A stretch of DNA of 64,000 nucleotides from Ischnura elegans (taxonomy: Eukaryota > Arthropoda > Insecta > Odonata > Coenagrionidae), in NCBI RefSeq assembly GCF_921293095.1, contig NC_060251.1, forward strand, positions 67,597,585-67,661,584, read 5' to 3'. Each line of letters opens with the position of its first letter. Within the stretch, counting starts at the first letter, position 1. The translations under genes were made by a program, and so were the position numbers. The notes beneath the pieces were generated by a model. The model saw only the letters and a list, made by a program, of their open reading frames with translations. It did not search any database and was not told where the DNA came from. This document shows positions 28,176 through 61,200 of this stretch, piece after piece.

Positions 28176-28294
28176 CTATACTAAATTGAGATCAGCTGTT
28201 TGGATTTCTCCTCCAAGTACGCAGAGAAGGATATCAGCATGCTGTGTGCCATCTTGTTGGATAATTGTCCCATCCTCCAGTATAAACGTAGGGC
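28176..28294 (-). CDS. PRDM15: PRDM15-like exon 21 (1068-1106), C terminus
   Basis: Encodes PTFILEDGTIIQQDG and ADILLCVLGGE, ending in TAG at 28,178-28,176. Acceptor TTTTTAG in phase 1 joins the previous exon exactly. Confidence 0.82.
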
Positions 28295-34200: not shown

Positions 34201-37200
34201 ACAAGTTTTTTCAATTTTGCCATAAGACAGTAGAGGCAATCAAAGCAAGAATGCTAACTGAACCATAGTTGACCATCTCTTTACCGCTACTGTTTCCAGC
34301 AGAAGGCTAAGAATTTGATAAGTGTCGGTAATATATTAAGTAAAGGGCATGGATAATAACAAGGTGAAAATATCTCACCATGAACCAAGCAATATATTGG
34401 GGTAAAGGTATGGGGAAGGTAGGAAAACAATGAGAGGAAGGTGCATAAGTGATTCAAACAGTGGGAGTGATTTTTAGTATTTTTAACGTTCCAAGTAAGG
34501 AGATGTCATCCATTCAATAGAATAAAGCACTGGAGAGACAGTAAACTGTAGGATCCAATTAATATACACAGAAATATCCCTCCTCCGTTATCAGTCATTT
34601 TTGGAGGCATATAACTGGCTTAAAACTGCAGCTATCATCCTGAAATTTTTAGTACGTATGAGTACACCCTACAACATCTGCCTTCATCTCAAATTCGAAA
34701 ATTCTAACTTGGTATTTTTATTTCAATTTTCTTCGACAATTTTTTATACAATGAAACGTTGAAAAAGTTCTACTCTGCATATACACCCTGAGTATTTTCA
34801 AGATTATAACTTATGAATATTTAACTATAAAATTTGAATGACCACCACCAAAAAAGAGTCAAGAAGCAGTGACCCACTATCTTAAATCATACGACTTACT
34901 TAGGCTCCACCACAACGTATTTCACACACTCAAGTGCATTTTAAATGAAAGAGCACCATGGTATCAAACAGATAGCATACGCAATATATGTACAACTTAA
35001 TACAACGTTTTGTCAAACAACAGCAAAAATAAGGCAGGCAGCAAATTCTTAAGACTTCTATCACCTCTGTTTCACATTTTTTTAAGTTGTAAACTGTTTT
35101 GGTAATGCTGTGGTGACAATATAAATCACTCAGCGACCGTAAACAGCATTGCATTGATATAGGCCCACTTTTGACTACATTAATCAATTATAACAATTAA
35201 CATAGCTTCGATTAAGGCCAATAGGGTGGTTTCCTATTTTTTTTTAATTGCCTAAATCGAAAGATTATCACTCCTGGAATACGTATTTCACGCTTTAGAT
35301 TTTTAAATGACAGTTTCTATTTTTTACGATAAAACGAAAAGTGAAAATTTTCAGGCACGCGAAAACGCGACGGCTAAGTATGAATGCCGTGTGACGTCAT
35401 TCTGGTTCCCGCTGCCGCCCTGTGAGGTGACCTTGAGGCGAGGCTTGAGTGCTGATACGACGCAGGATAATAGCAGGTAGCAGAGTACCTTGCTAGCAGA
35501 TAGCACTTGTCTTAAATAAGGATTTTTAATACCTAATCAAACCAAGGAAACTTTCCGACCATGAGCAGTTTTAATGGGTGATTACTAAGAGACGTTTCCC
35601 TGAGCTCTGTGCCTCATGCATGCATTGGTAATCTCAGACGATGTTAACTCCTATCTACTCGTATAGAAACCAGGTCCCTGTGACGTCACGTGGAGTGGCA
35701 TCACTTGGGCACCAATCGGGCCCTTATTCAAATGCGGTTGAAATTGACCATTGCCATTCGTCTAAACTAGGATTTCCATAACCAAATAATTTGTATATTA
35801 TGAATACACTGATGGTGGGTAACGAATTGCAATCAATGCCTTTCGTTTCCTTTGATTAAGGAAACTACCCTGTTTGAATTTTAAATCTCTAAAACCAAAT
35901 GAATTGAAAATACTGGTTGAGTGAATTGTTTATGGGTTAACGACAGGTGCTCTTTCTCTTAAGACCTTCCTTTTTCATTGTGCCAACCATCATCAAACAA
36001 TAAACCTGCACTATCTATCAAGAATGAATCATTAGCACAAAATAAGACCCTCCAAAACAGCTTCCAAGTTCTGTGAAATATTCTCTCTGAATCTGATTTC
36101 ACCACCTTTCACTTTTCCAGCTGAGATAAATCACCTTTTTCACTTAGTGAGGCTTAGGAGCTACTATGCGTCTCTTTACTATTTGTGGCTCATTTTATGT
36201 TCATTAAGCAATAAAAATAAAGTTTATTAAGATGCACAGGCTAAAATCAGTCCAGCAAATGCAAGGCAGAGAATTTCATTTTTTCCGGCAGTTTATGGCA
36301 ATAAGGCAGCTTTCCTTGGTAATGGCAAAATAAAAGGCTTTAATAACTTTTCTGGATGACTGAGGCGGATAAAAAAATAAAGGCATGTTTTTGTGACATA
36401 AATACCCAAGCATGGGTTGCTTTAGACGGCTTCTGACTTTTCAACCATCATCTATACACCGAATATTATGTCATTTTTGCCAATGAGCAATCGGATAAGC
36501 TATGGTACTGTATAGAATTGAAGTGTATGAAGTGGGCTACTAATGAGAGGCTGATAATTGAAGGAGCTTAAATGATGGAGTACGTAGTGGCCTAGAGAAG
36601 AAAAGCAAGTTTGGATAATGGTAGACATAGGTATCTCACCACTGGATACCACCCAGTAGACGATTACCATTACTCATTGCGCGAACACAACTGTTAATGG
36701 ACAAACAATGAGGAGCAAAGAGATTTCACATGAAATACTTCTAATCAGTACTTCATCCTTTCTAATTAAGGAAAAAAATAAGGAAATAAGACTTCCTTTA
36801 GTAAAATACTTGATGCCACATTTGGCAGCAACTAAGATAGATGGCGAAAAAGAGCCAGTAAAAACCACACACCTTGACAAAGGCCTTGCTACAAAGGGAA
36901 CACTGGTGCACCTTCCCCTGGGTATGCTCCAACAAATGAACAGCCAGGTAGTCCTTAGACATGAACATCTTGCCACAGTGGGGACAGGGATTCGACTTCT
37001 TTGACGTAGGTTCGTGTACAGCCATATGCTTCAGCAAGTTTCCCTTCTGATAAAACTCCTGCAGAGGAAGAGAAAATAAAAAGTAAGTAAACAATTCATT
37101 TCAGTATTGACCGTTTTTCCACTGCCGTGATTCCTACCCTTCTTCAGTGGCACTAAATTTCATTTAATGCACATTTCATTAAATTTCATGACATGTCATT

Positions 37201-40200
37201 ACGAAGACATATATTTCTACAATTATTATTCTCATAACATGGGCTAGCAATTATGACTACTGGGTAATCATTTAAAATTGGGAGAATAGTAAGGGGTGAA
37301 TCATACTCTGAGAATTGGACTACGGGCCATAGTCAGTTCACGCACAAACAATAAGTAGCTCCACAAACTGGAATAAATATTTTTCAGGAAGACTAAGGAA
37401 AGACATGTACAGTGGAACCTCGTTAAAGCGAGTACGGGCTATAGCGACACCCCCGCTATTACGAGAGATAGCCGATGCACCGTCAATTGACCCTATAATA
37501 AGCGTGTTAAAAAATTCGTTTTTACGAGACCCTTTCGGCGTTGGCTCTCGCCATAGCGAAGGTTTCACCGCCGGAAGACTTTCATCAAGACTCCTTAATC
37601 TCTGTAACTGCTAGCGATCTGTTAGAAATGAAGTTAATGGAGTGCTCAGTCTCAAATTTATGTGGTAAACTCTCGTTCGATAAATATAATGATTGACGAA
37701 ACAATGCTTTAAATGATTTTTATTCAGTGCGGCGCTTATAAATTGTTTGAATAGTTAGTCGTTATTTGAGTAAGGAAATTTAGTGATGCAAAAAAACATC
37801 GCCTTTCGTCTGGATTTATGCTTACGTTTATCGGATAGGTGTTTATCTGTCGCCGCACCACTCCTGTTCCTGTATATCTGTTCGCAACAGATATATTGGC
37901 TATTATTTGCTCCACCTCCGGTAAAGCGACAATTCGCTATAGCGAGTGTTTTTTAGTGCACCGTGGGGTGTCGTTATATCGAGGTTGCACTGTATATCTT
38001 TATTATTTATAGGAAGATGCAAATCATCAAACTAACATCTATGTTATTTTCTAAGCTAAGAGTTATTTCCAGAGAAGATATGATCTTTTATGCTAGCCAT
38101 TGCAGAACCAAACAGTGGGTTCTTGTATTTGCTACTCGTGTTTTACCATAAAGAATTTTGAAAATGACATTTTTTATAAAATGTAGCAAACTTAAGTTTC
38201 AACATCATGTTGGGCAAATTGATCACATTCTATGAATCCATATGTACAATGCATATTTAACTGAACAGGAATTTACTTCATGAGTTAGGGGACTCATTTT
38301 CAAGGCAATGCTTATCTTAAATTTGCAATTAGTTTCAAATTAAAGAAAACCATTGAGTACTATTTCCGCTCTTGCTGTTGAGCCCAATAATTCTAATTTC
38401 CATCTTTGTAGATAACAGTTTTGCATACAGCTGGTTTCTTTAGGTCATTGAAGTATGAGATCCCTAAACAGCAAAATAGGATGAAAGCTTTAACTAACCT
38501 TTCCACACTCATTACATTTGTAACGTCGCTCTCCTTTATGCAACAGCATATGGACCTCAAGGGACTTCTTGGTCTTCACTTTCTTATCACACACAGGGCA
38601 TGGAATCTGAATATGGAGAGGTTACAAATAATTACTGCACTCATACAAACCTGTTAGGCACAGACAGGCAACTTATTAGAGAATTCACAATAGGACAACT
38701 ACATACAAAAACAGAGAATGGAAATGAATTTCGGAAATCAAAATTAAATCATGAATGATCGCTGCATTCTCTTCGGGTTCGCGTTTCGCTGACTGCAATG
38801 TCAGCAAAACTGTTGTTGCCAAAAGCCAAAGGACACAGTGAAAACCCGAAGAGAATGCAGAGATTGTCTGATTGACACCGCAAAAATCTACGAACCTACA
38901 TAAAATCATGAATACTCTACAGCCATATACAAAAATAATAAGGATGTGCGAGTAGTAGTTTTTGATCTCGAGTTAAGAATCGAGTCGAGTTGAAAACTAC
39001 TTGCGAGTACATATATAGTAGAGTCGTGTATGGTAGTTTCTGAACCAGGCATTACAGCAATGCATGCTCCAACATGTTCTAATTTTTCCAATCCCCTTGT
39101 GAATTTCCTGTTCTGAATGCTTCGCCTGAATGAAAAAGTAAAAATTAATGAGGAATGTTAATGGTAATTGTGTCAGAATTAGGAGATGAATGAAAATTAA
39201 TAGTAATATGTTGACCATTTAATTAATGTATGTATCCCTAATGCTAGGAAGAGCCCTGAGTATAGGCAGTGGCACAATTGTCATGCAAAAAAACCAATAG
39301 AATAATCTTCCTCAGATAGCAGGTTTTGATATGTCCATGTCATAGTATTACTGCCTGCAGAAAATTCTTTCGTTACATACTTGTGCAGCTGAACAAGTAC
39401 TTTCTTGCCAAAAACACAACATTTGGAAACCTTGGGAATTATTAAAAATGATAACTATGATTTTTATGGTTCTTGGATCTTCATGTAATTTAAGCAGGGA
39501 CGCCGACTTGCAAAAATATTGTGGGGGCCCAACCGGGGATCTTGGCCCAGGAAATTTTATAGGTAGTGAGTTTTAAGTTTTTTAAGCATTTTAGAAGAGT
39601 CATATGATCAACATTAGAACCCTGATAACTCGAATCTCGATATCTGGACACTCCAGGGAAAATCAACAAGCCTGACACATTTTTTCCTCGCACCCATAAC
39701 GAATTTTTGAGGGGGCTCGGGCCCCCTCAAGCCCCATGGAGTTGGCACCACTGAATTTAAGTAGATCAAGCAATCAAAGAACTTAGCTTTATCTTTGTAA
39801 ACCAATAAAAAATTTTCTTTACTTCTAACTTCGTTTAATCAAGCCTAGCAATTCTTGTTTTATAAGTTCAAGATGGAAACTAAACACAATAAATGAGTAA
39901 AAGAAAATTTAACATCGGACATACATAGTACTAAAAAAGGCAAAAAGATGGCACCATTTGTAACATCAAACACCGTGAAAAACTGCCATTGCCTGCTAAA
40001 ACCTGAAAGTTAAATATACTTATCATAGAAATCTAAAAAGTTTTTACATATTCTCTTGACATCTGAGTAAATGAAGTAGTGTAGGATTCAAAAGTATCAT
40101 TTTAGAAAGAATGAGCGATACAGCCGTCCACTCCCGATTACTCCAAATATGCCACCGGGTTGGGAGATGGTCAGACGCCGCTGCTGACAAAAAGATATTC

Positions 40201-43200
40201 GGCACTCATGTCGAATACTATAATGGTTGACTACGTACACAGCAAGCTGAAACTCCTAGGCCAAGGCATTAGAATGACTTATCAACTTTAAGAACGATAT
40301 CATTTCGTGAGTTTTGCTTCTTGTTAGCAGATTTCTGAACTTACTGGCCTTTATAGCTCCGAAACAGGAACAACGACATGACATTCGTAATACTACTCAA
40401 GTCAAGTACCAACTACTCGACTCGAATTTTTGAGTACCCGCACATCCCTACAAAATCTAAATAAATAAATAAAATAAATGTACAAAAACAAATGCTATCA
40501 CCAAAATACAAATGAATTCAGCAGAAGGCAGAGTTATAGAAAACACAAAACAGGATTCAAGGAGATACAGTAGATTCAAGAACCAGAACATTAACACATT
40601 AGTGCAAGGATTACATTACAATAACGCCTAGTATGGAAGTTGGAATGCCAAATGGTAATGCCAATGTTAATAACACCCAAACTCTTATTATTTCCGAAGA
40701 ATACAATATCTATCCTTTATTTCATGGTCCTCAGTAATATCATTCACTACAGATATGAAATGAACTAATACAGTGTGTCCTCGTTTAACGTCGTCCCGTT
40801 TAACGTTGTTTCACGATAACGTTGTCCAAAAATTGAAACCCTTGATCATTTAATGTCGTTATTGCTTCGCGATAACGTTGTTCAAATTATGCGCGGCGAA
40901 AAAAAAATGAATGGCGAATAGGACGCAAGCGCATCTGATGTGAAGTAAATATTACTATTTTAATGCGATTGGTAATTTTCGTTCGACAGAAAAGGTTGGT
41001 GTGGGTAGCGTATGATAAATATGCGTCTGAGCGAATAATTATCGCCTCATTTACCCATTATCCGTTTATTTTTCTGATGCCAACCGAAAAAAATGTCCAC
41101 GAAGAAGAGTGGCTATCCTGGCGGTTCTTCAGACGTGAAGAAAAAACGGCGATATTAGAACAAAAACTTGGTATTATTAAAAGAATTGAAGAAGGTGCAA
41201 CTGCTGGAGAGATCGGTCGAGTTTTTACAATTAAAATTTCTTCTGTTACTGAAAATATCGATGTTTCGCCATTAAAATACTTTCTTTTTAGTTTTTATAT
41301 TTCATTTAATAATGCCTTCTTCCCAACCTTTTCGTTATGAAAATTCGTTTCGTTTCGAATGAATCGTTATCATGCTGAAGTGAATAATCGGTAATGAATG
41401 TTACTCGCGATTTCCGCCGGGTTAAAGAATTCATATCATCACGAAAATTGACACGCCCATCATCCTCGTGCTTCCGAGTGTCAGATTCAGATTTTTTTCG
41501 TTTTGGCCTGATTCAGGTGTCTCCCGATTGGTCACAAAGTCTGCTTAAAGTTACGGCTCCGATAATTGGCCTCCTTGGATTCTCGCCCGGGAAATTCTGG
41601 ATTCTTCACGAAGAAATGAATTGTTAGGAACGTGGCTAGGAACCAATTTAAATTTTTTACATTGTTTCTTATGGGAAACACTGCATCGTTTAACGTTGTT
41701 TCGCTTAACGTCGACTTTTTCAGGAACGAATCAACAACGTTAAACGAGGACTCACTGTACATTAATAAGCTTCTCAAGCTAGCAGCCATTTTTTACAAAT
41801 GAAATTCAGTAAAAATATTCTTTCATCCAAATTTATCCCAGATTCAATGAGTTACTTAAGTGATACCTAGTATGGATTGCCAAATGAAATTGTGGTTAAA
41901 TACATGAGCAAAATTCATAATTATAATCTAAGTTGCCTTCATTGTGTATGAGTTTAGCACCAAGTCATAATGCAATAATAAAACTAGAACTTTCAAGAAT
42001 ACTTATGTATATGATATCTCCCAATTGCATACCATGAATAAATTTTTGAAGGCTACCAATTACCTTTAATTCTTAAAACCATATCTTGAATATCATTTAC
42101 CTGAAAATGACACCTTGCATGGAAGTCCAGGTCATTTGTAAGAAAATGATCATTGGACTGAAAACATTTATTGTAAACCGATGTCACTCATATTAAAAAG
42201 TAAGCATAGAAAAAAAGGAAAAGTATAAAGTATGTATTGGCAGAGCATTAGGGAAAAACAGAGGTATCCATAACATCATTAAAAAATACCAGTGTGTATT
42301 CCAGAAAAGAGTAAATATTGAGAGATGAAAGAAAAATTGTACAAGCCTAGAAATGCTAAGTTCCTAATGACCTTCAAGGAAAAAGCATTTCTCGCTCGGG
42401 ATCCAATTAATATGCCAGCTTTAAAGGAAGATCCAATCAATGGACTTGACTGGATCTAGGGTGTGACTGGCCTCAACATCATAAATATCTAGATTGCATA
42501 CCAAGAATATACTGATCTGAGAGAGAAACAGTACAGCCTAACACTAAACTTAAGATAGTGAATTTAAAAATATGAAGAAAAAAATCCAGGCAAAAGCTTA
42601 ATTTTAGAAAAAATCATTGACGCAACCAAATATTCATACATTACAATCATAATAATAATAATAATACTTTTGTTCAACATTAAACACAATACAGTGTAAT
42701 AGCCTCCATCAATACATGCTACATACATCTAAATCGTATAGTTCAGAGTATTACTCTAAAAATTCATTCGGCGAATAAAAAGCTTGCCTTAATATCCACA
42801 AGCGAAGAGCATGTCATGTTTAAACTTCGGAATAGTACACTTTCTTGCATACATAGAAGACCACGTGAGCAGAGGCAATTATGTGCATTTCACACCATAC
42901 TAGAACTATCTGAAGACGTTGTATGCTAACTGCTACTGAATATTGAGGAAACAATTCAGTATTATAGCAACTGTCTAAATGGCCTAAGGCTACTAAGTCC
43001 AAATGGGAGCCATAGCTCCCAAAATAACGAAAACAAGTAGCCCAGTGGATATTAAAGGGATCATGCTTGCCAGCCAGCATGCAGGTTTTATTCTATACAA
43101 CACTTTAAGTGACCATGCAAGCTTCTATCCTTGGCCTTTTTCTTGATCTAGTAACATGCTATCAGGGATACTAAATTTTTAATAGACTCTTTGGAAAACA

Positions 43201-46200
43201 CATGTAGCACTGGCTGTTATTGTGATCATTCAGCAGCAAGAATAGGAGCTGACACATCACAGCTCACATTCCACAAACTTTAAGCAAAAATATACGAGTA
43301 TTAAGGTGTATTAGCTGACGACCTTCCAATTTACTGACTCCTTAACAAATTTTCCCACTTTTTCCTTGACTTTACTAACCAGTTTTAAAGTCCCTGACTT
43401 TCCCATGATGTAACTGTATTTAGAAAACCTGGCCAAACAAATTCAACAGTGACAATCACATAAAGCTGAAAACATATTGAAATTTTTATAAGTTGTAGAG
43501 AATTACATGAGTTCAATAATTTTGTCAGGAAAGGCAGCTGAAAGTGAACAGTGAAACATGGTAGAGAGAAACATGGCAAAGCCAAGAGGAGTACAGGAAT
43601 TTGCTTCTAGATTTAGTCAAAGCTAGCAAAACATGATAAATATTTGCCGATAAAGTATCAAGTATGCTATATAATGCAATGTCATCAAATAACTTTTTCA
43701 GGCCAGGTAGCCGAAAGGGAACAGTGGAAAATTTTGTTGCAATATTTGAATATAAAGGCACATTGACAGACGGTATTTAAAAATTTTCTGACTCTTCATC
43801 AAATTTTCCTGATTTGAGTAAGCAGTTTCAAACTTCCCGACTCCCCTATGACATGACTGAATTTAGTGACCTATAGCAATCCTGACAGAACTAGATGAAT
43901 GTCGTCACAATGAGCTGAACTATTTCAGGACCTTTTTTGGTTGCAATAAAAATCACTAAGTTATTCAAGTTAGGAAGCAATCAATCGATTAATGAATTCT
44001 TGGAAAGCAAAAGCAGCCACAGGAAATGTGAATGTACTCACCTGGGGATCTTGATGGACTGAAATATGCTCCTGCAGCACATCCTTGCGATGAAATCGCT
44101 TGTGGCAGATATCACACTCAAAGCGCCTCTCCCCTGTAACACAAATCCATGACAAATTAAATGTCTAATTTCTCCATGTAGAAACACATTAACACAAAAT
44201 GAACATAAAAAAAGACACGTCACATTTTTCACAAGTTGTATGGTGTTTTGGTAATGCTGGAATGATATTGTAAATCATGCAGCGACCGTAAACACCATTG
44301 AATTGTTTGATATTGGCCTAATTTTGACTACATTAACCACTAATGATGATTAAGATAGCTTCGATTAAGGCCAAATTTATTGAAAACACAAAACAAGTAA
44401 AATATAGGTAAAGCTGAATGGTTTAGGGCCTTCAATAGGTGCCCTGGGTCTTAAACCTGTCTTGAAGGGGACAAGGGTATCATCAGGATTGTACGAACAT
44501 TGTTAAATCTCAAAATCTCAACCCCCTGACCATTTCCAGATAAAAATCTTCAATCCATATGGCCAACCTTATGTTTATCCATCTAGCTGCTTGCAGAAAG
44601 GGGACAAGAGTATCATCAGGATTATACCAACAATGTTAAATCTTAACCCCCTGACCTTTTCCAGATAAAAATCTTCAATCCTCTGACTTTTTCACTATCC
44701 TTTTATTAGAAAATTCTTTTCAACAGTAATTGTGGATAAGATACAAAATTCTATCTACATGTATTTTGACCTTTTAAAACCTGTTTCTTTACTATAAACA
44801 CACAAAATATTTCATTGGGAACAAGATTTCAGTAGAATAAAGGTCAAACTACATTGTAAAATTGACAAAGACACATCAAACAATAACTAATTCGGGTCAT
44901 TCAGCATGGCATGCATTGCAGTCAAATTTTTAAGAGAGAAACACGGCAAATCCGAGAATGAAGCAAGGGAATTATTTGCTACTAGAATTAGTTGAAGCTA
45001 GAAAAATATTATAAATATTTAAAAATAAGGAATGCGGTACAATCCAATGTTATCAGAACCTCAATTTTCTTAAACTGTATCAGAGTCGAAGGCGCAAACC
45101 CTAAACCAGCCAACATTTTGACCTGCCCATAATGGCATAAAATTTCCCTGAAGCTGTGAAGAGATTCCCAGATTTCCCTGACCCATTTGAAATCCCCTGA
45201 CTTTTCCCTGAATTCAATTCAACTAAGTCCAGCCCCAATATTGCCCAATTTTGTTAATCTTACATGAAGCAGTTTTGTACTCGCAGATAGGCGAAGTGTT
45301 GCCAGGCTAATATGCCCCGCATGAGTCACTCTTAAAAACCACATGATAAACTTTTAGAGAACATAATAGAAAAAGTATTTTTCACCAAAACAGTACAGCA
45401 CACCATGGTTCTTAACTAGTTTCTACAATTTCTGACTATCAATGGGAGTACAGCACTGTAAGGCAGTAAGAATGTATACCAAGGAGATGGGGGAATGAAC
45501 AATTAAGGCTTGACAAATAATATGGAGAAAGCAATGTTCAATGGGTTGGAGAGGAAGAGAGAGAAGATGGAAACGACTGAGGATAATTCTGTTAGTTTAC
45601 AAGCCATTTATACCTCTACTTACCTTTTTTATATTTTCTTATAATTAAATATTTTAGTAACTTAACAATGCAGTACTCCTCATGATAACCAGACAAGGCT
45701 GACACCAGACAAGCATAATTGAAAACCAATGGAATTAACAAAGTACATACATACATTTTCTATAAAAAATTTGCACATAGCATCATGGGCTACAGAGGAA
45801 ATAAGTACATACCATGAAGCTGAACATGAGCTTTGAGGCTGTAAACAGTCTTGTACCGGGCACCACAAACTTCACAGATTAGATTGGTTTTGGAGGAGGC
45901 ATCACTTCCGACACCACTGCTGTCCCCTTGTCCCAACTCTTCCCCTCCCATCTCTTTCCCTTTCCGCTTCCTTCCCTTGTAATCACCTCGCCTGGCTGCT
46001 TGGCAGCCACTGCAATCATGATTCTCAAATGACTCCTGCAAGAGGGACATAAGGAGCATGTTACACATTAAATAAAACCCAACCAACCATAACAAGTGAG
46101 CAATCAGGAAAAATAGCATTTACTAAACATGACTGGCAATTTCTCTTGAAAGAAGGCCCTGTTAAGGCCTGTTTACATGGTACCTATACGAGTTACCACG

Positions 46201-49200
46201 CCTAAATGTATGAACACAAGAATGAACACAAAAATGTACCTAGGGTATGCATGAACGGAAAATAGAACCTGTTCTAATTTGGTTCATGCATTCGTACATG
46301 CTCCGTTACGGTCCACAACAAAAATTCACGCAAACAGACAGTAACTAGTACGTGTTAATGTAACGTGTAACCAGACTTTAGAAATGAAATACTTTTAATT
46401 TAGTATGTACTTAATTTAATGATTAAAGATGAGTGATGGCAACTCTACTGCATCAATAACATTAGTGCATTCATATAAAACTCCAATGAAACTGAAAATA
46501 ACATGAGGATCTCTTTGGAATGTTGTCCACCAATAGATTTACTAAGGTCTTCCTAAGTCTATAGTTCATTTGATCACTTATGTGCACTGTTTTGGTAATG
46601 CCAGTATGACAATAACATTCACCTAGCGACCGTTAACAGCACTACATCACTTAATTTAGGTCTACTTTTGACTACATTAACCACTGATGACGATTAACAT
46701 AGCTTCGATTAAGACCAATTTTTTCAACAGATAGCTAAGAGCTTAATTCCTAAGACTAGTTTGGAGAGAGGTAAAGAATAGATTATACATCGCCCTGGCG
46801 AATGAGATCTAAAAACATTTCACAGCCACTGACTGGTATTTTCTAAAAAAAGAAAACAGAAATCACCAGATGCTTTATCCCAATAAATTCCCTGAGTTTT
46901 CCACATTTCCTGGACAAGTGGCCATCCTGCATTCATTCGTTTCCACTTAGCATTCACACATGTAAAAACTACATAATTTGCCAGTGGGGCAAAAGCATCA
47001 GTTTTTCAAAACACAATTAATTTCGATAAATGCGATGGTGGTTGGCGTAACATGGTGAAACTCCTTCATGATGCACAAAGGTTAAGAAAAGACTTAGCTG
47101 TTTCACAAAATAAAATATATTTGCGACCGGTTTCGATACAGCGTATCATCATCTGGCCAGATGATGATACGCTGTATCGAAACCGGTCGCAAATATATTT
47201 TATTTTGTGAAACAGCTAAGTCTTTTCTTAACCTTTGTGCACAATTAATTTCAACAACTCCAATACCTAAGAAGGCTGAATTGAGAAAAGGAATAGGTTT
47301 ACTCACATTAAGAAAGAAGCTGACACTGCACTCAAAGCAGTGAAAGGTGGCAGTTCCGTGCTGGTCATGGTGAGTGAGGAGAGCTCGGTGAGATGGGAAA
47401 TCTTCCTGGCACACTTCACACTTGAGACAGCGGTCAAGGTCACACTTGTGACCAACTGAACAGTTGAAGGAAAAAAAAACAATTCAACCAACCGTGACTT
47501 CATAGAAGCAGCCATGCATTGTACCCCTTTTCTATTTAGACATGTTTGCATGTTCTTTTGGTATATCCTACATGATAAAGAAATGGGAATATCACAGTGA
47601 ATGATGCATGAAGAACAACTTGCACTAATGTCACTGGTGTTAAGCAACCCAATGCAGACCAAATGTTGCCAAAAAAGGTTAATTCTTGGGTTGCAGATCC
47701 CTTTTCCTGCTTAATTGGAGAGGAAATCTCAAACCTTCCTAGTGCAAGCCAAACTTGCAGCATCTGTCCATGTTTAGCTTCTTGTTGATGAAGAGGAATA
47801 ACAAAGATATAGGGTCTATACACTTCAAATAAAAAAAAAAAAACTTTTGTCCCTTTGGGTCTCAGATTTTGATGATGATTTCTGTAAAATTTTTACTATT
47901 AACCCTTTTACTGCCACCCGGCCGATATATCAGCCCTCGCTGGTTGAGTGAAAACTGCCAGGGGCCGATTTATCCGCCCGAATTATGACTTTTTTTTTTC
48001 GTGATTGTGGCCTTTATAACAGCTGTAATTTATGTAAACCCCCATAATCTATTTATGGTTATAAGATATAAATATATCTTAAGAATTGGGGAAAAAATCT
48101 AGACGTATTATATAAAATTAAGTAGCTGAAAAATTGTTTAATCTGAAATGTAGCAAATTCCGGTAAATAGCCTTGGCAGTCTTCGCATATCCCACCCGAA
48201 ATGGGCTGGCAGTAAAAAGGTTAAGATCCCCATTCCATCTGGTACTGTTGTGGTTGGAAATAACAGTAAGTTTTTCATGACAAACCATTAGTTATTTTCC
48301 AAATATATTGGCATCAGTGATTGGTATAACTCTGAAATTCAATTTTGAACCAATGGTGGCATAAAACCTTGAACAGTGAAAGGCTCATAACAATGGAATG
48401 TAAATAATGTTAAGTACAGGAGGAACTGGTTTGGGTAAGATGGCAAAATTACCATCACGCCCTCTAGGAAAACAGAAAGTGAAGATAAGCATCAGCTTAG
48501 TAAGTGTAAAGAGGAGTCCAAACCTAAAAATAAGTTGTCCCCATAGCTGCCCATTAAAACTGCCAATCAAATTTGCCGTTTATAGATATCTCCCAAAATT
48601 GGATCTAACTTTGATTTTCAAACTTGAAATGATCCCATTTTGATCCTGAAAAGCACTTTACATATAAACAAAAGGAAGCAGACAGTATGTTACACCCATG
48701 ATCAGGAAGCAGCGGAAAGAGCTACTGGGAATGTATTGGAAAAAGCTTTAATTTTCCAGAAGGAAGGATCACATTAATTAACATAGTAGTTCCATGCTTC
48801 ATAATAGACATGGACTACAGCAACTGATACAGATCTGACGATGTGTTAACAAGAAAATTAAGATCGCTTACAGCTAAAGGGTTAAAGAAATGATAATCCC
48901 AAAAAATTGACAAAGCATGGACTGGTGCATTATACAATGTATCGTTAGTAAATACACTCTAATGACCTAAATGAGAAAAAAATTTCTACACAACTGACTT
49001 TGAATAAAAAGTAAGCAGAGATTTACATGCTTACCTGACATTTTACGGCTCCTAAAACGGACACCGCAATGCTGACAGAAAAATGGGTGAGTATGGTCCC
49101 TCACGTGATTCCTAAAGGCAACTAAATCTTCAACAACTGACTCACATAAGGGACACATAGCTTTCTCACCATCTTGCAACTCCTTCACCTAAAGTAAAAA

Positions 49201-52200
49201 AAATCATACATAGAGAGCACGAAAAATACATATGGATAGGGGAAAAAAACACTCACTTAGTTTGTTGGTGCCACAATTTCATAACGTTCGAACCAGAACA
49301 TATACCTAAGGAATCAATTATAAAATAATTAGTAAGAAAACAAGTTTGAATCTTGCTCCCTTGCCCATAGGCTATCAAAATAAATGTGGAATAAGATACT
49401 TGACAGTGAGGATTAAAGTTTAAGCTAATAAATCAAAATCACATTACAAGAGGACCATGTGATTCATGCAATAGATTGTAACTTCAATCAGGAAGATGAC
49501 AATTTCATATTATTTTCCCCAAGTGATACATATATGTCCAAGGGTAGTGTCCATATTAAATGAAAAAAATAAGTCTCCATGCGATTTCATAAATTAAATT
49601 AAATTGTTATTCATTTAACTCCATTTCTGTATTTAACACTTCTTTCCTTAAGTCTGCCAACAAATAAGCTCATGAAAAAGTTTCTGTGATGCTAGGAGGG
49701 TTCTAATGTAGCACTAAGTGAGGAACAACAGTCGGCTATATTGAAAAATGGAGGGTGGAATGGAAGGTGAACAGATGATAAAGATTGCTACTGGGGAGAT
49801 AAAATATAGCTTCATACTGGGTGTATTAATTAAAGAAACCTCTACTAATTTGTTAATTGTGCAAATAAATAACAAATTTCAAAAAATTAGAGAAGCCAAA
49901 TTAAAACTAACACATTTATTTACTGTATTTCGAACTAGTAGGACTGCTACGACACAAATATTGCTTTTATTTTTTGGTTTCCGGGGTGAGGGGTTCCTTC
50001 CCCCTAAGGCCTACCATACAAGTTCAGTTTGGCCTCAAGGTCTGGACTGTTCAGTCCTGGACTGAAGGAAGAACTGACAGTGTGTGGTGATTCCTTGAGT
50101 TGGATCGTCAGCCGGATGGTAATCCAATGAGGTCTGGCCTCAAGGTCGCTTAGCATTGAGGCCGGACCTCATTGTTAGTTTGACCAGACCTTGAGGTCAA
50201 ACTGAACGTGTATGGTAGGCCTGAGGCTCCAGCCAAACTGTGCAGTTCCGGCCTACCCCTATAGTTACACCACTGCTAAGCTTTTAAACGCACTGATACC
50301 ATTAGGACTGACTGAACTGCTCTTTTCTATCTGCATCTCCATCATCCTTAAAAACACTCTAACATAGGTAGAACTTAGGAGCATACTTTGAGACAGCAGC
50401 GAAGATGTAAAAAGTTCCAAGCGACAAACCTGCTTGCAGAGAGACTGGTGCTCCTCAAGGGGTTGTGAGAGCAGAAAGCTCTTTTCACAGAACTCGCAGT
50501 TGTAGCTGAGGTCCTCGTCATCTGGATGGTGCTGGGAGTAATGGTTGCGCAAGTTATTCTGGTTGACGAATCCCTTACCACACACACTACAATTATACTT
50601 CTTGGTGCGACGAACAGAGCTCTTCTCATGTTTAACGCAATGGTGAGTATCCAAGGATGTCTTGGATGAGTAAACATGCTTGCAGATTTGACACGTAAAC
50701 TCGCCTGAAAATAAAACGCAACAATAAGAGATGGCAAACCACAATGCAGGGAGATCAGTAAGTTTCAAAAGTCTACATTATGAGTAGGCTTATAGCCATG
50801 GATATTCAAGCCAGAAACTACAACTCAACCCATTTTCAGCCATCAGCCCACAAGCACACATTTTAGAAGTTTGTAGCAATACATTTTACTTAAGTTATCA
50901 ATACCTTCCTAGAAATTTTTCATAAAACATAAAAGTTACCCGCAAGAAATTTTAGTTTTTTTTCCGGTGATTTATTATAAACTAATTTGTCAGTTACTCA
51001 GAGTAAAAGTGATGGAGATTCATCGATATAACTTTTTCTAACCATATTAATCATTTTAATGAAACTATTCATATTAAAATAATATTGTGTATGTTTCACG
51101 ATCACGTGAATTAATTTTGGTTACTTAAAATCAACGTTTCTTACAGGGGCTATTTTTTCAATAATATCACATAAAGAATGTGCACTCTAAGAATAACAAG
51201 CAATTACTTTAAAATGACAACAGTTATGATTACCGTGCAGAGAAAAACATGAAGGTTTTTTCAATGGTTAACAATATGAACAAAGAGAATAGGGTTGGGT
51301 TCATTGATTACGTGAGGTGATTTTGACAAATTTTGGATCCCCGCTTCACCCTTGATGAGATTTGGCTCAATCCCCTTCCCCCTCCCTCTAATCGCACGTG
51401 AGATTGTTCAAAATGCGTATTTTCAGCATAAATACGTTCATCTATGCTTCATTGCATTGGATTAATTTAGAGAAAAAAAAAACAAAAACAATTTGTTTGA
51501 TTATTTTTCATTAAGATTAGCTACGACTAGTACTTAAGGTTAATATCATAGTCGAGAATCACATTTTACACTGTTTCTTTCCGAAAAAAATTACGTGATA
51601 TTTTCCAAGACCCCCCTCTCCCATGCGAGATTAAAGGCACTACACACTCCACCAGACCAAACCACCCAACTTAGTTGCCAACGTAGTTGGTCCCGACAGT
51701 TGGAGGGTGTGCAGGCATGTCGATCGACAAAAACAGTCGAACCCGACGGTCGGGCGGTTGGTCCTGTCAGACAATCCAACCACTGACCGCCCTACCCCGA
51801 TTTCTGTGGCGTTGCAACGCCTGTAGCGTTATCGGCTATTTTTTCTAACATTTTGAGGTTTGATCTTGCCAAGCAACTCCATGAAACACACTTCACCCAT
51901 CCTAAAATAATTTCGGAATTAATTTCCTTCCAATTCTCGAAGGATATTCATGTGGGTGAAACTTCAAGCAGCCACTTCTTCGCCCATACTCATCTCTTTT
52001 TTTGGATGTCATCAATGAGAACCTAATCGGCTGAAGCCAAACCCATTTTTTGATTTTTCGACAAATGTGGAGCCATTGCCAACACAAGCCAAAACGAACT
52101 TCACTCCACGCGATCACGTTGTGTATTGAGGAATATTTGGTTAGCTGGTCGGGTCGATTGGCTTGGATGTCTGCAGAGTTGGCCCCGACAGGGATGGTCA

Positions 52201-55200
52201 TGGAGTTGGGTCGTGTCAGGTGATCAGGTTGGAACGTGTTTAGCACCTTTTAGAGGAGAATTGGCTTGACCCCCTTCCCTCCTGAACACCTCATGTAATT
52301 AATGGATGTCTTCTAACCAGTCACTATAAATCCACTTTATAACCACAAATGAACAAGCACTCAAAAGATTGCTTCCTATAGAACCTCAGCAAACCCGCAC
52401 ATTAAGGAGCCTACAAAGGAACTTAGCCGGTGACAGCCAGAGCACAACCGCAAAACCTTGAACTGATGCTAAGGCAGGCGGTGGGCCAAGGAGAAAAAAG
52501 AAAGATGCTTTGATTTCAAGGGATCCAAATTGCATATTTGAAAATAAGTACCTTTACCAAAAATCAAATGCAATAGCTTCAACCCAAACTTGAATTCAAA
52601 ATTTGAAATGACAAAAAACCCTCAAAATGCAATGAAGCTACTTTTTAACGGCAAGCAACTTTGATGAAGGATTTCATTATCTAGAAGAACATGACTCCCA
52701 AAGGTTTGGCTCACAAGCCTTGAAAGTCAAAGAAGAATGAAATGATGTTAACTTTGATTTGATTGTAGTTAAACTCACTTTTGTGCTTGGACATGTGCCT
52801 CTTCAGGAGCTTAGGAACTGTAAATACTTTGGGGCAATATGAGCAGGAATACAGGTTTGATGCAACACCACCCACACAAACATGAGTCTGAAGACTCTCT
52901 TTCCTGGCAAACACCTGAAATAAAAATAATTACCGTATAATATCGAAACTCATTCTACCTGGGATGTTATATTCATGAAAGCATTGATTTCAAATTTCGG
53001 ATTATTATTCAATTTCTTCAACAAATTTGGATCCGAAGTAAAAGGGCATTATCAGTGGATATTTGGATCAGAGGTATCCAATCTAAACATCCCTAGTAAG
53101 CATCATAAGGTTAAGACTACAAGTGAGTATCAACTATTCTCCAAGCACCACACATATTGTGAAAATTTAGCTGACAAATGCCTAGTAAATTTTTAGTATT
53201 GAAAGTGGAAATTTTGATGACTGTCGAAAGTCCAGGCATACGTCTGCAATGCTGTGTGATAGGATTTCAAAAAATGTTGCAAAAAATTATTTTCTGTAGC
53301 TTCAATGCTAAAAATAGGGGTGTGTTTCTTACACTCGTTTACGCAGTACACGTTTTTGATAGAATACAAGCAATTAGGTGAGCTTAGTAAATTGCATATT
53401 TGTAATTTCCTCAATAAAATTACCATACTTAGATATCTCAAAAAAAAAAAAACATGAAGCAAAATTCAGTTAACTTCTTTCTTGGGCATGTATTAACTAA
53501 TTATATTTTTGATAAGAAATCTCATTAATTTTTGAGGAAAAAAATGTAAACTAGTCTGGGAAAACATATTTGTACTATTTTCTTCTCATTTCCTAATCCA
53601 ATTAAGAACTACCTCAATATTTTCCCATCCATGATTGGTTACACAAAATATTAGTCATCTTAACATCCACACTACCTCATTGGTCAGTTTAATCAACAGT
53701 CTATGTTGTGTTCAACCGTACTCTCCTCATTATCACTAATGTTCTTCCTGTTATATGTGTAGGAGGGGTTTTCAATGAAGTGTAAAGGCCTGGTTACACG
53801 ATACATAAACACGTACAGGTTTATGTCTAAATGTATGAACGCGACAATGAATGCCAAAATGCACTTTGTAACCACCCAACTTGTGCAAATGCATACACAG
53901 AAAATAGAACCTGTTCTAATTTGGTTCATGCATTCGTACCTGTTCCATTCCACTAAAATCATTCACGCAAACATACATTAACTTGTGCGAGTTAATGTAC
54001 CGTGTAACCAGGCTTTAAGAAATTACAGCTAAAATACCAACTGGTTAATGTATGCAAGCTAAATACTCATGCAACAAGATGGTGTAGTGAGCTACTGCAA
54101 ACGCTCCAAATCTGCATCTTCCAAAATCAGAGATGAGGGGAAAGATTTTTTGCTAAAAACCATTATGATTGCCCTCACTTTGATGCAACAGATTAATAAT
54201 TTGAGTTATTATGAATTTTATTTGAGTAATATTAGCCTATTCTAGATCTTGAAGAGTCAATGATCTAGCTCTACACTAAAGAGCACAGGATATGAATGAA
54301 CTTCATTAAGTTCATTACATGTTTCAATGTATGCTGTTTTGGTAATGCCAGCATGAAAATAAAATATCACCCAGCGACCGTAAACAGCAATTTATTTAGG
54401 CCTACTTTTGACTATGTTAATCTCTTAGATGACTAACATAGCTTCGATTAAGGCCAGTAACAACAGAACATCACGTTAAGAAAATCATGAGCGGGCCTCA
54501 GTGAGTGCATTTGTTTTCCACCACTGTGAGACTCCGCAGTATTACCAATTTGGCATCAAGTCAGAACTTAAAAAAATTTTGGCTCTAAACTGGTAAGTTT
54601 TCCTGACCGGGGACTACACAATTAACTTTCTTAAGAATGCTGGATCTTAAGTTTAAAAAAAAATAAATCTTTTACAATTTTCTAAAATTTTATATGATAA
54701 ACTTCAACTTAATTTCTGTCACCTTTGCACAATCCATCACTATTATGAAGTCCCACATCACAATGGGCTGTACTTACACTGAAACCTTTGGATTTATTTT
54801 CTGAGTCTGCTTAACAAAATTTCAAATTTTGTTTATTTTGAAAATATTTATGTATAAGCAATTACTCACAAAATTTCACATGCAGTGTACCTGTCACATA
54901 GATTGAATTAATTGGCACTGATTGGGTAATCCTCATTGGTAAATACCGTATTCCTCCGAATATAGTCCCCCCCCCCTAATTTTGAGGCTTGAGTTTCGGG
55001 AAAAAATTAAAAAAATGGGTTTGAATATAGTCCCCCCCTTAACTTTTATCACTGGCATTTTTGGATAAAAAGGGGGGACTATACTCAGACACATAGGGTA
55101 ATTACAATTAAAAATATCAAAATATAATAGATTTCACTTTTCGATTGGTCCTCCAGAATGTAAAGTAAGAGTCTACTTTACATTTATATTTTGTCATACG

Positions 55201-58200
55201 CATTATGACTTCAAAACTCTCTAAAAGAATAGCCCTGGGGTGAGGAAATATTGGTGCCATTTGGCCTCATTCACTCTGGGTTTGAATGAAAAGAATAATT
55301 CACTATGGTAAAGTGAGCCACTTTGCTACTCAACCAACTTCTTACACTTACCGCCATGCAGGAGACGCAAGTGAATTCTCCAGTGTGTTTGCGCAGGTGG
55401 CGATAGACATACTCGGCACGATGAAACTCCTTACTACAAATGTCACAGATGTACGGTGGACCCAGTTCCACTCCACTAATAGGCTTGTCTGGCTTCACAG
55501 ATATTGTTACACAGCCAGCATCTTTCAGCATGGGATTCTGAAGAAAGTAGAAAAATTAAATTGACTTGCTAGCATCACAAAAGATCACAGAAATGAATGT
55601 ATTTAACTAAGTTCGACTAAATGCAACAATGTATGCTGTTTTGGTAATGCCAGCATGAAAATAATATTCACCCAGCGACCGTAAACAGCAATTTATTTAG
55701 GCCTACTTTTGACTATGTTAATCTCTTAGACGACTAACATAGCTTCGATTAAGGCCAGTCAAGAAGGAATTTCAAGTGCAGAGAACCATGATTTGGCCTC
55801 AAAGAAAACATTAATGGAGAGGTGTACATTCTCAGTGACCACAGACCTTATTAAATCAGGGAGAGAAAGTCCTTCACTGACTCATGAAGTGACAATGCAG
55901 AACTGTTTATTCCTTTCTTAAGGGAGAGAAAGAATGCATTTCAGTAGCCATCACACACCACATAGTTGATAAAATTTGCTGCACTACTGTATCAATTTCA
56001 TCGCATTGATATTTTATAAATCACTGGTTTTATCCCTAACATAATCCAGAAAAACCCTACACCCCTACTTTTCCCATTAAATGCCAATTCAAATCTGGTG
56101 TTCTAATCAGCATGCATAACAGCATTCTAATGCGATGAAATTTCAAAATTCCATAACTCAAGTCCAAAAGATAAAATGTATGGGGTTCCCTCAAATATGT
56201 TCACAAAAATCGATTTTGAAACACACAAGGGACATCCTCATCTAAACACATGAAAAATACATTCAAAAATTTTATGCGCTGAAATTTATAAGAAATGATA
56301 GAAAAAATTGTATGCTTAGCATGAAAATGTGCATTTTGAAAAAATTCCTCATGGTGCTGCTCAAAACTAATTATGCCCACCAAATATTTGGCACACCCAA
56401 CACAAGCCAATGCTATAGTAAAGAAAAAGCAAGCATCTTACATCCTGCCCTTCAGGTATCCTAGATATCACAATGCTAGTCGTCTTGGCTCCCTCTCCTT
56501 GCCACTCGATTCCTTCCTCTATATTCTGCGACACAGCTTCGCCACATTTCTGGGCCTCGGCATAATGTGTTTCCGACTCTTGCTTCATCCCCTGAAGACC
56601 CAAAAGCCTGGGACGCCTAATTGCCACTTTATGTTCTTTCACTTTGTGGTGGAGCAGCTCCTAAAAATGCAAGCAACTTCTTATTTACACATAAGTAAGT
56701 ACTTTGACCAATGAGGTGGAACATTCATCTACCAGATGAGCAATTTTCCAGTTTTTTGACAAAAGACAAAAAAAAAAATCAATCAGCAATAAGGCAATAG
56801 TTTTCAATAAAATAACACACACAAGGACATTGCACTTTACTACAACTTTTTACCCATTAGAAAGAAAACATACTACTCAACCCTTACATCACATGATTAT
56901 TAAACTCTTAAGGAAAACGATGAACAATGTTTTCCACACAATTGAGAGTAAAATAAAAACAATAAAATTCTTGCACAGTGAAAAAAATTAAACAGCAATT
57001 AAATCAAGGCAAAACGTTTGACTATTACCAATTTCATCGATTTAAGCTATTGTTCTTACCAATGAAATTGGTATTAGGCAGTCAAGGAGCTCATCATAAA
57101 TTATACTGTTCACAATTATTACAATATTTTTTATGAAAACATTATATTACACTCAGGTAATGCGTTGAAGATTAAAAAATTAATTTCTTAAAAAATGTGT
57201 TAAATTTTTAATTTAAAGATAAATAAATAGAGGGACTTTAACTGTGAATTGAATATAATTGACATTTGTACTTTTAATCCTCATAGTTCATGCTTTTTAC
57301 AACTGTTTTAAACACTACTGTACATGCTTATGTTTTTTATGTGCCATATACTTGGCTACTGATATTTAATGGTGGATTTATTACATGATGAAAAGTAAAA
57401 ACACTTAAAATCCACATGATTTTCTTAATTTTTTATAATTTCTTTAGGTACGACCAAGGTTTCGACATCACACATCATCATCTGGCTCATTCAAAATGAA
57501 GACAAAGAATATACGTACCCGATGATGACACACAAAGTCAAAGCCTAGGTCATACTTTAATAAATTCACACGGAATTACTTAGTTGTTTTTACTTTTCAT
57601 TGTGGTGAGTCGATTCCATGAAGTCATGCCTTATACAACAAATTGAATTAATTGGCACTGATGTTGATTTCTCATTCGTAAATAATTACAATTCAAAATA
57701 CAATGGATTTCACTAAAGGATTGGTCCTCCAGAATGTAAAGTAAGGGTCTACTCTATACAATTATATTTTGTCGTATGCATTATTGACTTCTTACCTTCT
57801 AACATGGAAAATAAACGTAATTAAAAACTCACCTTCTCACTCGAGAAGTTCTGGAGACAAAAATGGCATGGCCATGACTGTTGAGCTGCGCTGCGTCCCA
57901 GTCGAGGTTTATAGTGCTCCATCAGGTGCTTGGCAAACGTCGCCACCCCACTGCCTCCTCCCACACCCTCTTTCACAACCTCCTCACCACAAAGACGACA
58001 ACGCCACTTCTTCTTCGCACTCTCACTTCTAGCACCCAGCTGTTGGGGAGCCAGCTTCTCCACTATCTTCTCAGTCACTTCCTTGTCTTGAATAGAATAG
58101 AATACATATTCAAGGTATTTGGAGAATAAGGCCTGTTCCCTAAGGAGGAGACGTAAGATAGGTACGTCTCCATACATCCTTATGGCTTACACCTCACCCC

Positions 58201-61200
58201 TCAGAGTCTTGAACATGACTGCTGCCAGTGCTGTGTATTGCCAACCTGAAGTGAGTGGTAGGTAATTCACTTGTCCTCATTTTCCATACAATTTACAATT
58301 TCATGTTCCTAATTGACACATTCCGACTTTCATAAGCAAATTTAGAGTTTCAGACAGTCAAGACTGTCTGTAGCAACAAAATGCACTCAATTATCTAGCA
58401 CAGGAAATTGGATAAATATCTAGGAAATTTATGTTTGACTATACCAAATTCATTTTAAAGAAATCTGTAGGCAATATGTGCTTCTGGACTAATAAACAGT
58501 AAATAAATAAAAGTTAGTCCATGCATGGTGGCTCACAAAACTCAAACTGAGAAATTGAAAAAGATATAAGAAAGCATGGAATAACATCCTTCATCTATTA
58601 AAAAATTCAATTATATCTATAAGCAATATTTCAGGTAACTCTTTTATGAAAATTTTGAGTGACGGCATTTATTTTCCAAATTTGGACTTCATAGCCAGCG
58701 AGACAATTTCTAATGTTGAAGTTATCACCTTTCACTTCATCCATAACTGTATGCTGTTTTGGTAATGCCAGATTGACAACGATAATCACCCAGCGACCGT
58801 TAACAGCACTGAAGGACTTATTATAGGCCCACTTTTGACAGTGCTAACCACTAATGATGGTTACCAATGCTTCGATAAGGGTCACTGTTTAACAGCCAAT
58901 AATGGCAGCATAAACTCACTCAGCAATTCAAATCTAATGTTAGTACTAACAGATTCAAGTAGAACTCACACTAGGCCACAGGCAGGGCTGGGCAAAATGC
59001 AGGACAAGTAGTATTTGAAATGCAAAATTCCTTAGACTTGGGTATTTGAAATACAAACTACACATTAGTATTTTAAATACCTTTTAAAATACAGGATACA
59101 TTTGTACGGAAACTGAGAGATCTTAAAAATACCTTGGCTCGTTATGGATAGTTGCAAACATGAAGAAAACAAAGTAATCTCTGAAGCATAATGTTACAGA
59201 AGTGTTATCAGAGCTATTCAAAAGTATTTTACAAATGTATTTTTTTTATTTTAAAATGGGAAAATACCAAAAATCTGTATTAGAAATACAAAGTACATCC
59301 AGGTTGTTATTTGAAATACCATGTACAAATTACATACGTATTTCAAAATACTGGTATTTGAAATACTGCCCAGCCCTGGCCACCGGCATGGGAGAGCCAG
59401 AAAATCATAGTAGGGTGGTTGCTGCAATTTCCTAGGTACTCTGGAGCTAGAGGACTTTAGTTTGGGGTTTATGAAGGCTTCGGATTCGATTCTGGGATCC
59501 TTCAAATATAACTTCAATACCCGACTTACTGAGTACCAACCTACCCAACATAAGGAGGGAAATGCAGGCATTTTGGAAACAAGTCTATCCTAAAGGATAT
59601 CCTATGTGTCAAGTCATTTACTGAGAGAATACTTTTTCAGAAAGAGAGAGGTTAGCAATGAAAAAAGTTACACATTGAATAAGTAGCCAAAGAGACCATC
59701 ATATCAGTAAGTGCACTGCCATTTAGATGCTTTGAGGAAGTTCCAATGAAACACACAGTATTGACTGTGGCCCTGCTCACGGCCGACTTTTTAGTTGCCG
59801 CAACTAAATAATTGGGTCCGGAATTATTCCGCCATGAGTGAGTCAACTGTTGCTGGCAGGAATAGACCACGTGGGTTTTTAGCAACCTAATAGTTGCTTT
59901 AAAAAAGTTGCCAGTGCAGGGGGCCCTAAAAGTAAGGACCTGGATGTCATCATGGTAGATTTCATTTCTTATCAGACCTGGATGCAATTCCTTTAATAGA
60001 ATCTAATAGCAAAAGCACAACTATTTTCCAGAATAAAAACAGATGCAATGTGACAAACGGAATTCCTAGGTAGGATGAATAGATATGGAGAAGGTGAAGA
60101 ACACAATAATATGGCAGAAACAGTAACAGCCGTGGAGAGCTATCCAAATTAAATACCTCTTTGATTCATCTTTTATCAGAGACATTAACTAAGTCTTTAA
60201 TTGCCAATGAAAGGTATACTAACAAGTGGACAGTTGAATTTTGCAAACTAAATAAGACTGGCAATAGCATAATTTTTTAAACAGTGTGTAGCCAGAGGCA
60301 TAATTGTTTATCAATGGGCTTATCAATGAAATACAATTTAAGAAGTGCACTTACTGAGAAGCATATTCTGAACAACTTTCTTCTCCTTCCGGGGAGTTCC
60401 ATACACATGGTCAGTGAGAGCATCTATCTTCCTCTGGAAAATAAAAAGATCAATACATGCAACAAAGTGTTACAGACACAATTGCTTTAATATGTTTAAC
60501 CTTTGTATTATCGTGCATGTGCTGATCAAAGCTTGCTCACACTGTTGAGAGGGTTAAGGCTACAACTACAACGATGGCTGAAACACTATCACAATTTTAT
60601 ACTGCGGATTCGGAAAAACTTGATCCAACTGAATGAAAATTTGATTCAAACAATGCTGGAGAATTAATTACAAAATTTTCGCATGAGTTTGGTAGAGAAT
60701 TGGATCCATATTGACTTTAGCATACGTTCAGGCAATAATGTACGCGAAAATTTCCTTTAATCTGACCCATACTATTGTGTTTTTCAGAATAACTGGGCAA
60801 ATGGGCACAAGACATCAAACACTCCCAATAATGATTGTTTCCCCAGCAGACATCTAATCAGATTGGGTATTCTGGTACCCTGATTTCATGTGGGAATAAT
60901 CATTATAGCGAAATTCTAGTTCTAAAGGCACAGAATTTACGATCCATGCGAAAATTTGCAACAGGCTCCCAGCCTCCCTAACCGAAGAACGTTAGATTAC
61001 AGTGTGCGCAAGAATGACAAAATTGAAGGTATCATCCCTTCAAACCAAACATCACCAACCAAAAGCAATTAAAAAATAATAAGTATGGTGACGTGTACTT
61101 ACTTTAACTGGCTGATCAACTCCCATTTTTACAGCATAATACGGCGCATACCAAACTTTAAGCTGCTCGCCAGGTTGTATTGTTTTCATAACTGTATAGT

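Follow-up and report, generated by a model that had tools for sequence, protein, structure and literature searches.

Six Copies of a Putative SNORA16-Like Box H/ACA Guide RNA in Separate Introns of a PRDM15-Like Zinc-Finger Gene of the Damselfly Ischnura elegans

We analyzed a stretch of 64,000 nt from the genome of the damselfly Ischnura elegans (contig NC_060251.1 of RefSeq assembly GCF_921293095.1, positions 67,597,585 to 67,661,584 of the forward strand), which is referred to as the window. Six related sequences with the features of box H/ACA small nucleolar RNAs (snoRNAs) are located there in six different introns of a PRDM15-like zinc-finger gene. It is very probable that the six represent intron-encoded guides of the SNORA16 family that modify a uridine of the large subunit (LSU) ribosomal RNA (rRNA), that they were duplicated within their host gene, and that they act as redundant copies which raise the output of the guide. 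The analysis covered the sequence and structure of the copies, covariation, conservation of the pockets, pairing to the LSU rRNA of other eukaryotes, the host gene, the intron positions, and the copy number in the genome as found by BLAST.

According to the model that we propose, the PRDM15-like pre-mRNA would be spliced and each of the six introns would be trimmed to an RNA of 133–142 nt, which would be protected by the H/ACA proteins dyskerin, NOP10, NHP2, and GAR1. The pocket of the 5' hairpin would base-pair on either side of a single LSU uridine, which we take to be the site of human 28S U4412 and to lie near the peptidyl-transferase centre. Dyskerin would then isomerise this uridine to pseudouridine. 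The six copies would have originated from duplication inside the host gene, and the presence of redundant copies would lead to a higher guide yield per transcript. For processing, protein binding, modification, and the role in dosage, the model follows the established biology of H/ACA RNAs.

Host Gene and Position of the Six Copies

An exact protein-guided exon model of the host gene comprised 20 coding exons on the minus strand (28176..62117), with AG acceptors required and GT or GC accepted as donors. The start codon is located at 62117, and the stop codon ends at 28176. The spliced coding sequence of 3264 nt resulted in the exact translation of the 1087-amino acid (aa) protein "zinc finger protein 26-like [Ischnura elegans]" plus stop, and this protein (P0001) was also the top match when the joined exons were used in a protein search. 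Relatives of the host protein in Hetaerina, Thrips, Penaeus, and others are named PRDM15-like. A piece of 90 aa matched the PR domain PF21549 with an E value of 1.5e-19, and the solved structure nearest in sequence was the PR domain of PRDM10. With an N-terminal PR domain, C2H2 fingers, and relatives named PRDM15, the host is predicted to be a PRDM15-like gene, while the Ischnura record itself carries the name "zinc finger protein 26-like".

All six copies are encoded on the minus strand, in sense orientation to the host and with one copy per intron (introns 6, 8, 9, 13, 14, and 17). They are named here by their lower coordinate. In intron 6, a distance of 658 nt separates copy 58745 (58745..58886) from the 3' splice site; its H box is at 58819–58824 and its ACA at 58748–58750. 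Intron 8 harbors copy 55627 (55627..55759), for which this distance is 89 nt (H box 55693–55698, ACA 55630–55632), and intron 9 harbors copy 54325 (54325..54458) at a distance of 1410 nt (H box 54392–54397, ACA 54328–54330). Intron 13 contains copy 46578 (46578..46719), whose distance to the 3' splice site is 542 nt (H box 46652–46657, ACA 46581–46583), and copy 44234 (44234..44375) is found in intron 14, 100 nt from that site (H box 44308–44313, ACA 44237–44239). For copy 35085 (35085..35222) in intron 17, the distance is 995 nt (H box 35155–35160, ACA 35088–35090).

An earlier note made from the DNA letters had placed six related copies at 35,085, 44,234, 46,578, 54,325, 55,627, and 58,745, one per intron and all sense to a PRDM15-like host. 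All of them were present at these positions on the minus strand, and exon model, strand, and protein search agreed with the description of the host. The note had assigned the copies to introns 18, 14, 13, 9, 8, and 6, respectively; five of these numbers were right, and in the model with 20 coding exons the copy at 35,085 belongs to intron 17 instead of intron 18.

Structure and Covariation of the Copies

The consensus fold of the six copies consisted of a hairpin, a hinge, a second hairpin, and a tail, in bodies of 133–142 nt (n = 6). Each copy had an H box of the type ANANNA (ATATCA, ATATCA, AAATTA, AAATAA, AAATAA, and ATAATA for copies 35085, 44234, 46578, 54325, 55627, and 58745, respectively) and an ACA 3 nt from the 3' end, with the 3' ends placed by sequence. 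The spacing was constant: in all six copies a distance of exactly 14 nt separated the 5' pocket from the H box below it, and the ACA was located 16 nt below the 3' pocket. When the copies were folded singly, five of the six folds were better than all 200 dinucleotide shuffles (z of −3.1 to −6.6, with −6.59 for copy 44234).

Among the six copies, 6 of 33 pairs were changed on both sides with pairing kept, compared to 2.1 expected from column shuffles, a count that stems from few and related sequences and is indicative rather than a probability. Four of the five measures of covariation were reached by none of 500 shuffles; for the fifth measure, the number of further pair types, 3 of 500 shuffles were as high. 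The same restriction applies when a seventh copy from elsewhere in the genome (described below) was included: 9 pairs were counted versus 3.1 expected, with none of 500 shuffles reaching four of the measures and 1 of 500 reaching the fifth. A covariance model built from the six copies gave 145–159 bits for these six, which it matches by construction, and not more than 14.5 bits for any other sequence of the window. A 50-nt match with 60% identity at 47535, present in the repeat listing of the window, was not recovered by this model.

Judged by their sequence, the six copies are box H/ACA snoRNAs, for which binding of dyskerin and the other core proteins and accumulation as stable small RNAs are predicted. 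The class had been called in the earlier note from hairpin, ANANNA hinge, hairpin, and an ACA about 16 nt below the upper stem. Boxes and spacing in all six copies, the consensus fold, and the covariation supported this call. The note had also proposed a covariance model of the six copies and a covariation test, in which no more covariation than by chance would have spoken against it; the model found the six copies apart from the rest of the window, and the number of covarying pairs was above expectation with and without the seventh copy. Chance hairpins were ruled out by the shuffled folds, the covariation, and the covariance model, with a reservation for copy 58745.

Relation to SNORA16 and Predicted Target in the LSU rRNA

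Copies 54325, 35085, and 55627 matched the Rfam family SNORA16 (RF00190, also ACA16) with 38.1, 37.3, and 35.9 bits, respectively, above the gathering score of 35 bits. Like SNORA16, the damselfly RNAs have the order hairpin, hinge, hairpin, and ACA and a 5' pocket with CGAAG and GUCAAAA, and they presumably share its target site. The core of this pocket, AUCGAAG and UCAAAA, was intact in six of six copies. They differ from SNORA16 by the presence of six copies in one zinc-finger gene and by the 3' side of the 3' pocket, which is unlike the Rfam consensus. The six copies look like members of the SNORA16 family and would then represent an ancient rRNA guide of a known kind. Neither this family nor a target had been named in the earlier note.

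We searched for targets in eukaryotic rRNA contained in public contigs, which was located by a conserved LSU pattern. The scan included locus L005 (LSU beginning at about position 1990 of the model and continuing to the end), loci L003, L004, and L007 (3' parts of the LSU), the starts of the small subunit (SSU) rRNA in L003 and L004, and non-rRNA sequence. At the two best sites of the scan, the 5' pocket paired with 7 + 7 bp to UUUUUGA-[UC]-CUUCGAU of L005 and equally well to UUUUUGA-[UU]-CUUCGAU of L007. The predicted target uridine is the U of LSU UUUUUGA-U-CCUUCGAU. Against the LSU part of L005 the 5' pocket scored 26.8, and none of 3000 arm shuffles was as good (best shuffle 25.1). The complementarity to this site reached 26–27.6 in all seven copies. 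Human SNORA16A is tabulated against 28S U4412 (PMC3766210). The host of the human RNA is SNHG12.

The conserved stretch of eukaryotic LSU rRNA was present in six genome contigs labelled as prokaryotic (L002–L007). This is likely due to contamination of those assemblies.

Conservation of the Guide Pockets and Points Against the Assignment

Several observations weigh against the assignment of all six copies as functional SNORA16-type guides. The gathering score of SNORA16 was reached by only three of the six window copies, and copy 58745 stayed below it with 33.1 bits. The two remaining copies were listed without a SNORA16 score and showed their best Rfam matches to other H/ACA families, in each case below the gathering score of that family: TtnuHACA9 (RF02316; 40.9 bits, gathering 100) and snopsi28S-3327 (RF00544; 32.7 bits, gathering 70) for copy 44234, and snR46 (RF01253; 28 bits, gathering 43) for copy 46578. 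Of these families, snR46 and snopsi28S-3327 are placed together with SNORA16 in Rfam clan CL00021, and we assume that the guide site of all three is equivalent to that of SNORA16. Copy 58745 folded just weakly better than its shuffles, of which 12 in 200 were as good (z of −1.63), and its 5' hairpin contained three broken pairs. The distance of the copies to the 3' splice site varied from 89 to 1410 nt. The LSU sequences to which the 5' pocket was paired are those of other eukaryotes and not the damselfly's own rRNA. Moreover, the 3' hairpin gave no convincing target site in L005, L003, L007, or L004 when eight pocket borders were tried.

The broken pairs and weak fold of copy 58745, as well as the widely differing distances to the 3' splice site, could also mean that the working RNA is supplied by one or two of the six, or by the seventh copy near a cactus-like gene, and that the others are decaying duplicates. 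The seventh copy has the best SNORA16 score of all, which fits this explanation. We nevertheless regard it as unlikely, since the parts required for guiding did not decay along with the remaining sequence. The pairwise identity of the six bodies was 72–98.5%, with only 1 of 15 pairs above 85% (copies 54325 and 55627) and all others at 72–84%. Despite this divergence, 29 of 32 pocket columns were invariant versus 48 of the 101 remaining columns without gaps (Fisher p 9e-6) and 13 of 32 other unpaired columns (p 5e-5); the pocket borders were set after the alignment had been seen, so these values are indicative and count less in favor of our assignment than their size suggests. The H box, the ACA, and their spacing were likewise intact in six of six copies. 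Because the pocket columns were nearly invariant compared to other columns, we conclude that in each copy the parts needed for guiding have largely escaped divergence. Six redundant guides are preferred over a few working copies among decaying ones.

The 3' Hairpin

The 3' pocket is formed by ACGGUCGC and GCAUUACCAAAAC, with 6 of 7 and 8 of 8 columns, respectively, invariant in the six copies. The 5' arm of this hairpin, ACGGUCGC, is also part of the Rfam SNORA16 consensus. Both findings would agree with the expansion being of use for a second, lineage-specific function of this hairpin, the pocket of which may guide another target. The results of the target scan make this improbable. The best score of the 3' hairpin was 21.9 at a site outside the rRNA part of L007 and at most 19.3 within rRNA, versus 26.8 for the 5' hairpin (the 3' hairpin values being without shuffle control). 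Furthermore, GGU and ACC inside the pocket are able to pair with each other in the consensus fold, and the seventh copy deviates from the six in the 3' pocket. Because GGU and ACC can pair together, the 3' hairpin may not be a guide at all.

A more far-reaching scenario would be that a guide for the peptidyl-transferase centre moved into a PRDM-type regulator and was multiplied six-fold there, that the output of rRNA modification follows the transcription of this regulator with six guides made from each transcript, and that the 3' pocket may guide a further site. We give this combination even slightly less credit than a second task of the 3' hairpin, and redundant guides acting by the 5' hairpin remain the preferred explanation.

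In all six copies (e.g., 54325–54458), ACGGUCGC is complementary, apart from one bulged base, to GCGACGU of the LSU just upstream of the target uridine. An accessory pairing at this position is possible.

Copy Number in the Genome and Origin of the Copies

In BLAST searches of the whole genome (1.72 Gb), copy 54325 and copy 44234 each detected the six window copies and no other sequence. When copy 58745 served as query, seven matches were obtained, of which one is located on contig C4 and the others are the window copies. A search started from the C4 copy recovered just three of the seven, and consequently the reach of BLAST is limited at this divergence. The copy number given here rests on BLAST with these four queries (copies 54325, 44234, and 58745 and the C4 copy), and further diverged copies beyond the reach of BLAST could exist.

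The seventh SNORA16 copy (C4:80011998–80012130, corresponding to L025:1498–1635, minus strand) was identified by BLAST with copy 58745 and by covariance models. Its identity to the six was 61–68%. The six-copy model assigned 106.5 bits to it, and for SNORA16 its score of 45.1 bits exceeded the gathering score. Its 5' pocket arm and the flank of this arm were identical to those of copy 58745 from intron 6. The neighboring gene is cactus-like (I-kappa-B), with ankyrin exons upstream of the C4 copy. The copy is located about 835 nt downstream of, and sense to, the exon encoding residues 358–438 of the 441-aa "NF-kappa-B inhibitor cactus-like isoform X2". It probably lies in the last intron of this gene. 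No additional copies were found within 18.9 kb around the C4 copy.

Extra copies of human H/ACA RNAs are considered more likely to have arisen by retroposition (PMC8178906), and the BLAST homology of most copies stopped about 40 nt or less beyond the snoRNA ends. Both points would be compatible with an H/ACA-derived short interspersed element (SINE) or a snoRNA retroposon (snoRT) that landed in the host gene. This origin is largely refuted by our data, and we consider it very unlikely. Within the 1.72 Gb of the genome, BLAST revealed just seven copies. A single gene accounts for six of these, each in sense orientation to it, and the pockets have been maintained. No convincing target-site duplication was detected: in four copies the longest words common to the two 60-nt flanks of the copy were 8–9 nt at shifted positions, and in two copies no common word of at least 7 nt was present. 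A SINE or retroposon origin was thus ruled out on the basis of the genome copy number and the lack of convincing target-site duplications. Hundreds of copies in both orientations and outside introns, by which a SINE should be recognized according to the earlier note, were not seen in the BLAST of the genome, which gave six copies and one diverged relative.

Duplication within the host gene, our preferred origin, was most evident for copies 54325 and 55627. Their bodies were 98.5% identical, with two substitutions and one inserted base, while the 60-nt flanks showed 62% and 80% identity. This difference between body and flanks fits a duplicated intron segment in which the RNA was kept alike by conversion or selection. 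When five pairs of copies were compared for shared flanks, both flanks were clearly common only to this pair. Copies 58745 and 46578 showed a weak signal in the downstream flank, which was reached by 2 of 200 shuffles over 60 nt and by 10 of 200 over 120 nt, and three of the four other pairs gave nothing clear in the global comparison. When all 15 pairs were tested without gaps, copies 35085 and 44234 shared a short downstream match that was better than 100 shuffles, which was not the case in the global test.

Comparison to Known Intronic snoRNA Arrays

The six-fold expansion in a zinc-finger gene had been described as unusual in the earlier note. One of the Drosophila hosts considered here, lola, is presumably a zinc-finger transcription factor gene as well. 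The description holds for the degree of the expansion and does not hold for its kind, since paralogues or clusters of snoRNAs in one host are documented (PMC2653536, PMC8178906, PMC1821038, PMC5932544, PMC13228274). In chicken, intragenic duplication gave rise to snoRNA paralogues across the introns of one host (PMC2653536). Such vertebrate paralogues in different introns of one host have the same proposed origin as the damselfly array (PMC2653536, PMC8178906). All expressed members are found in one host in just 7.3% of human H/ACA families (PMC8178906).

Clusters of snoRNAs in single hosts are also known from flies (PMC5932544). The Drosophila gene mfl harbors four isoforms of the C/D snoRNA DmSnR60 and the H/ACA snoRNA snoH1 in its introns (PMC1821038). 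Both mfl and the damselfly host are insect protein-coding genes in which each of several introns holds one of a set of related snoRNA isoforms (PMC1821038); mfl differs in that the multi-copy member is of the C/D and not of the H/ACA type and that the host is a pseudouridine synthase gene. In the Drosophila genes lola, Arpc2, dom, and Uhg several intronic snoRNAs per gene were reported (PMC13228274), as in the damselfly host. Because snoRNA paralogues distributed over the introns of a single host have been described before, the kind of arrangement is already known, and the news lies in the copy number for an H/ACA guide, in the family, and in the host. In the papers retrieved on snoRNAs of Ischnura elegans or on PRDM15 together with snoRNAs, nothing on this array appeared in titles and the openings of abstracts.

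The array is a clear example of the multiplication of an ancient rRNA guide inside one protein-coding gene, which is the less common arrangement for human H/ACA RNAs. Since the six copies differ in sequence and can be distinguished, small-RNA reads could reveal which introns are productive. The effect of the distance to the splice site (89 to 1410 nt) on H/ACA processing would be testable within one transcript.

Further Elements in the Host Introns

Intron 18 of the host contains an open reading frame at 31743–32516 on the plus strand, antisense to the host, which encodes 258 aa with a DDE_1 domain (E 2.5e-32) and a Tc5-type DNA-binding domain. In intron 13 a near-perfect inverted repeat was found at 47065–47248, with arms of 92 nt, 97% identity, and no spacer. 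It gave sub-threshold matches to microRNA families, two of them on both strands, and is probably a miniature inverted-repeat transposable element or a fold-back element. A repeat pair with 82–90% identity and an inverted arm (46247–46380, 53889–54017, and 53785–53839) is located near copies 46578 and 54325. It resembles a short inverted-repeat transposon more than a part of the snoRNA duplication.

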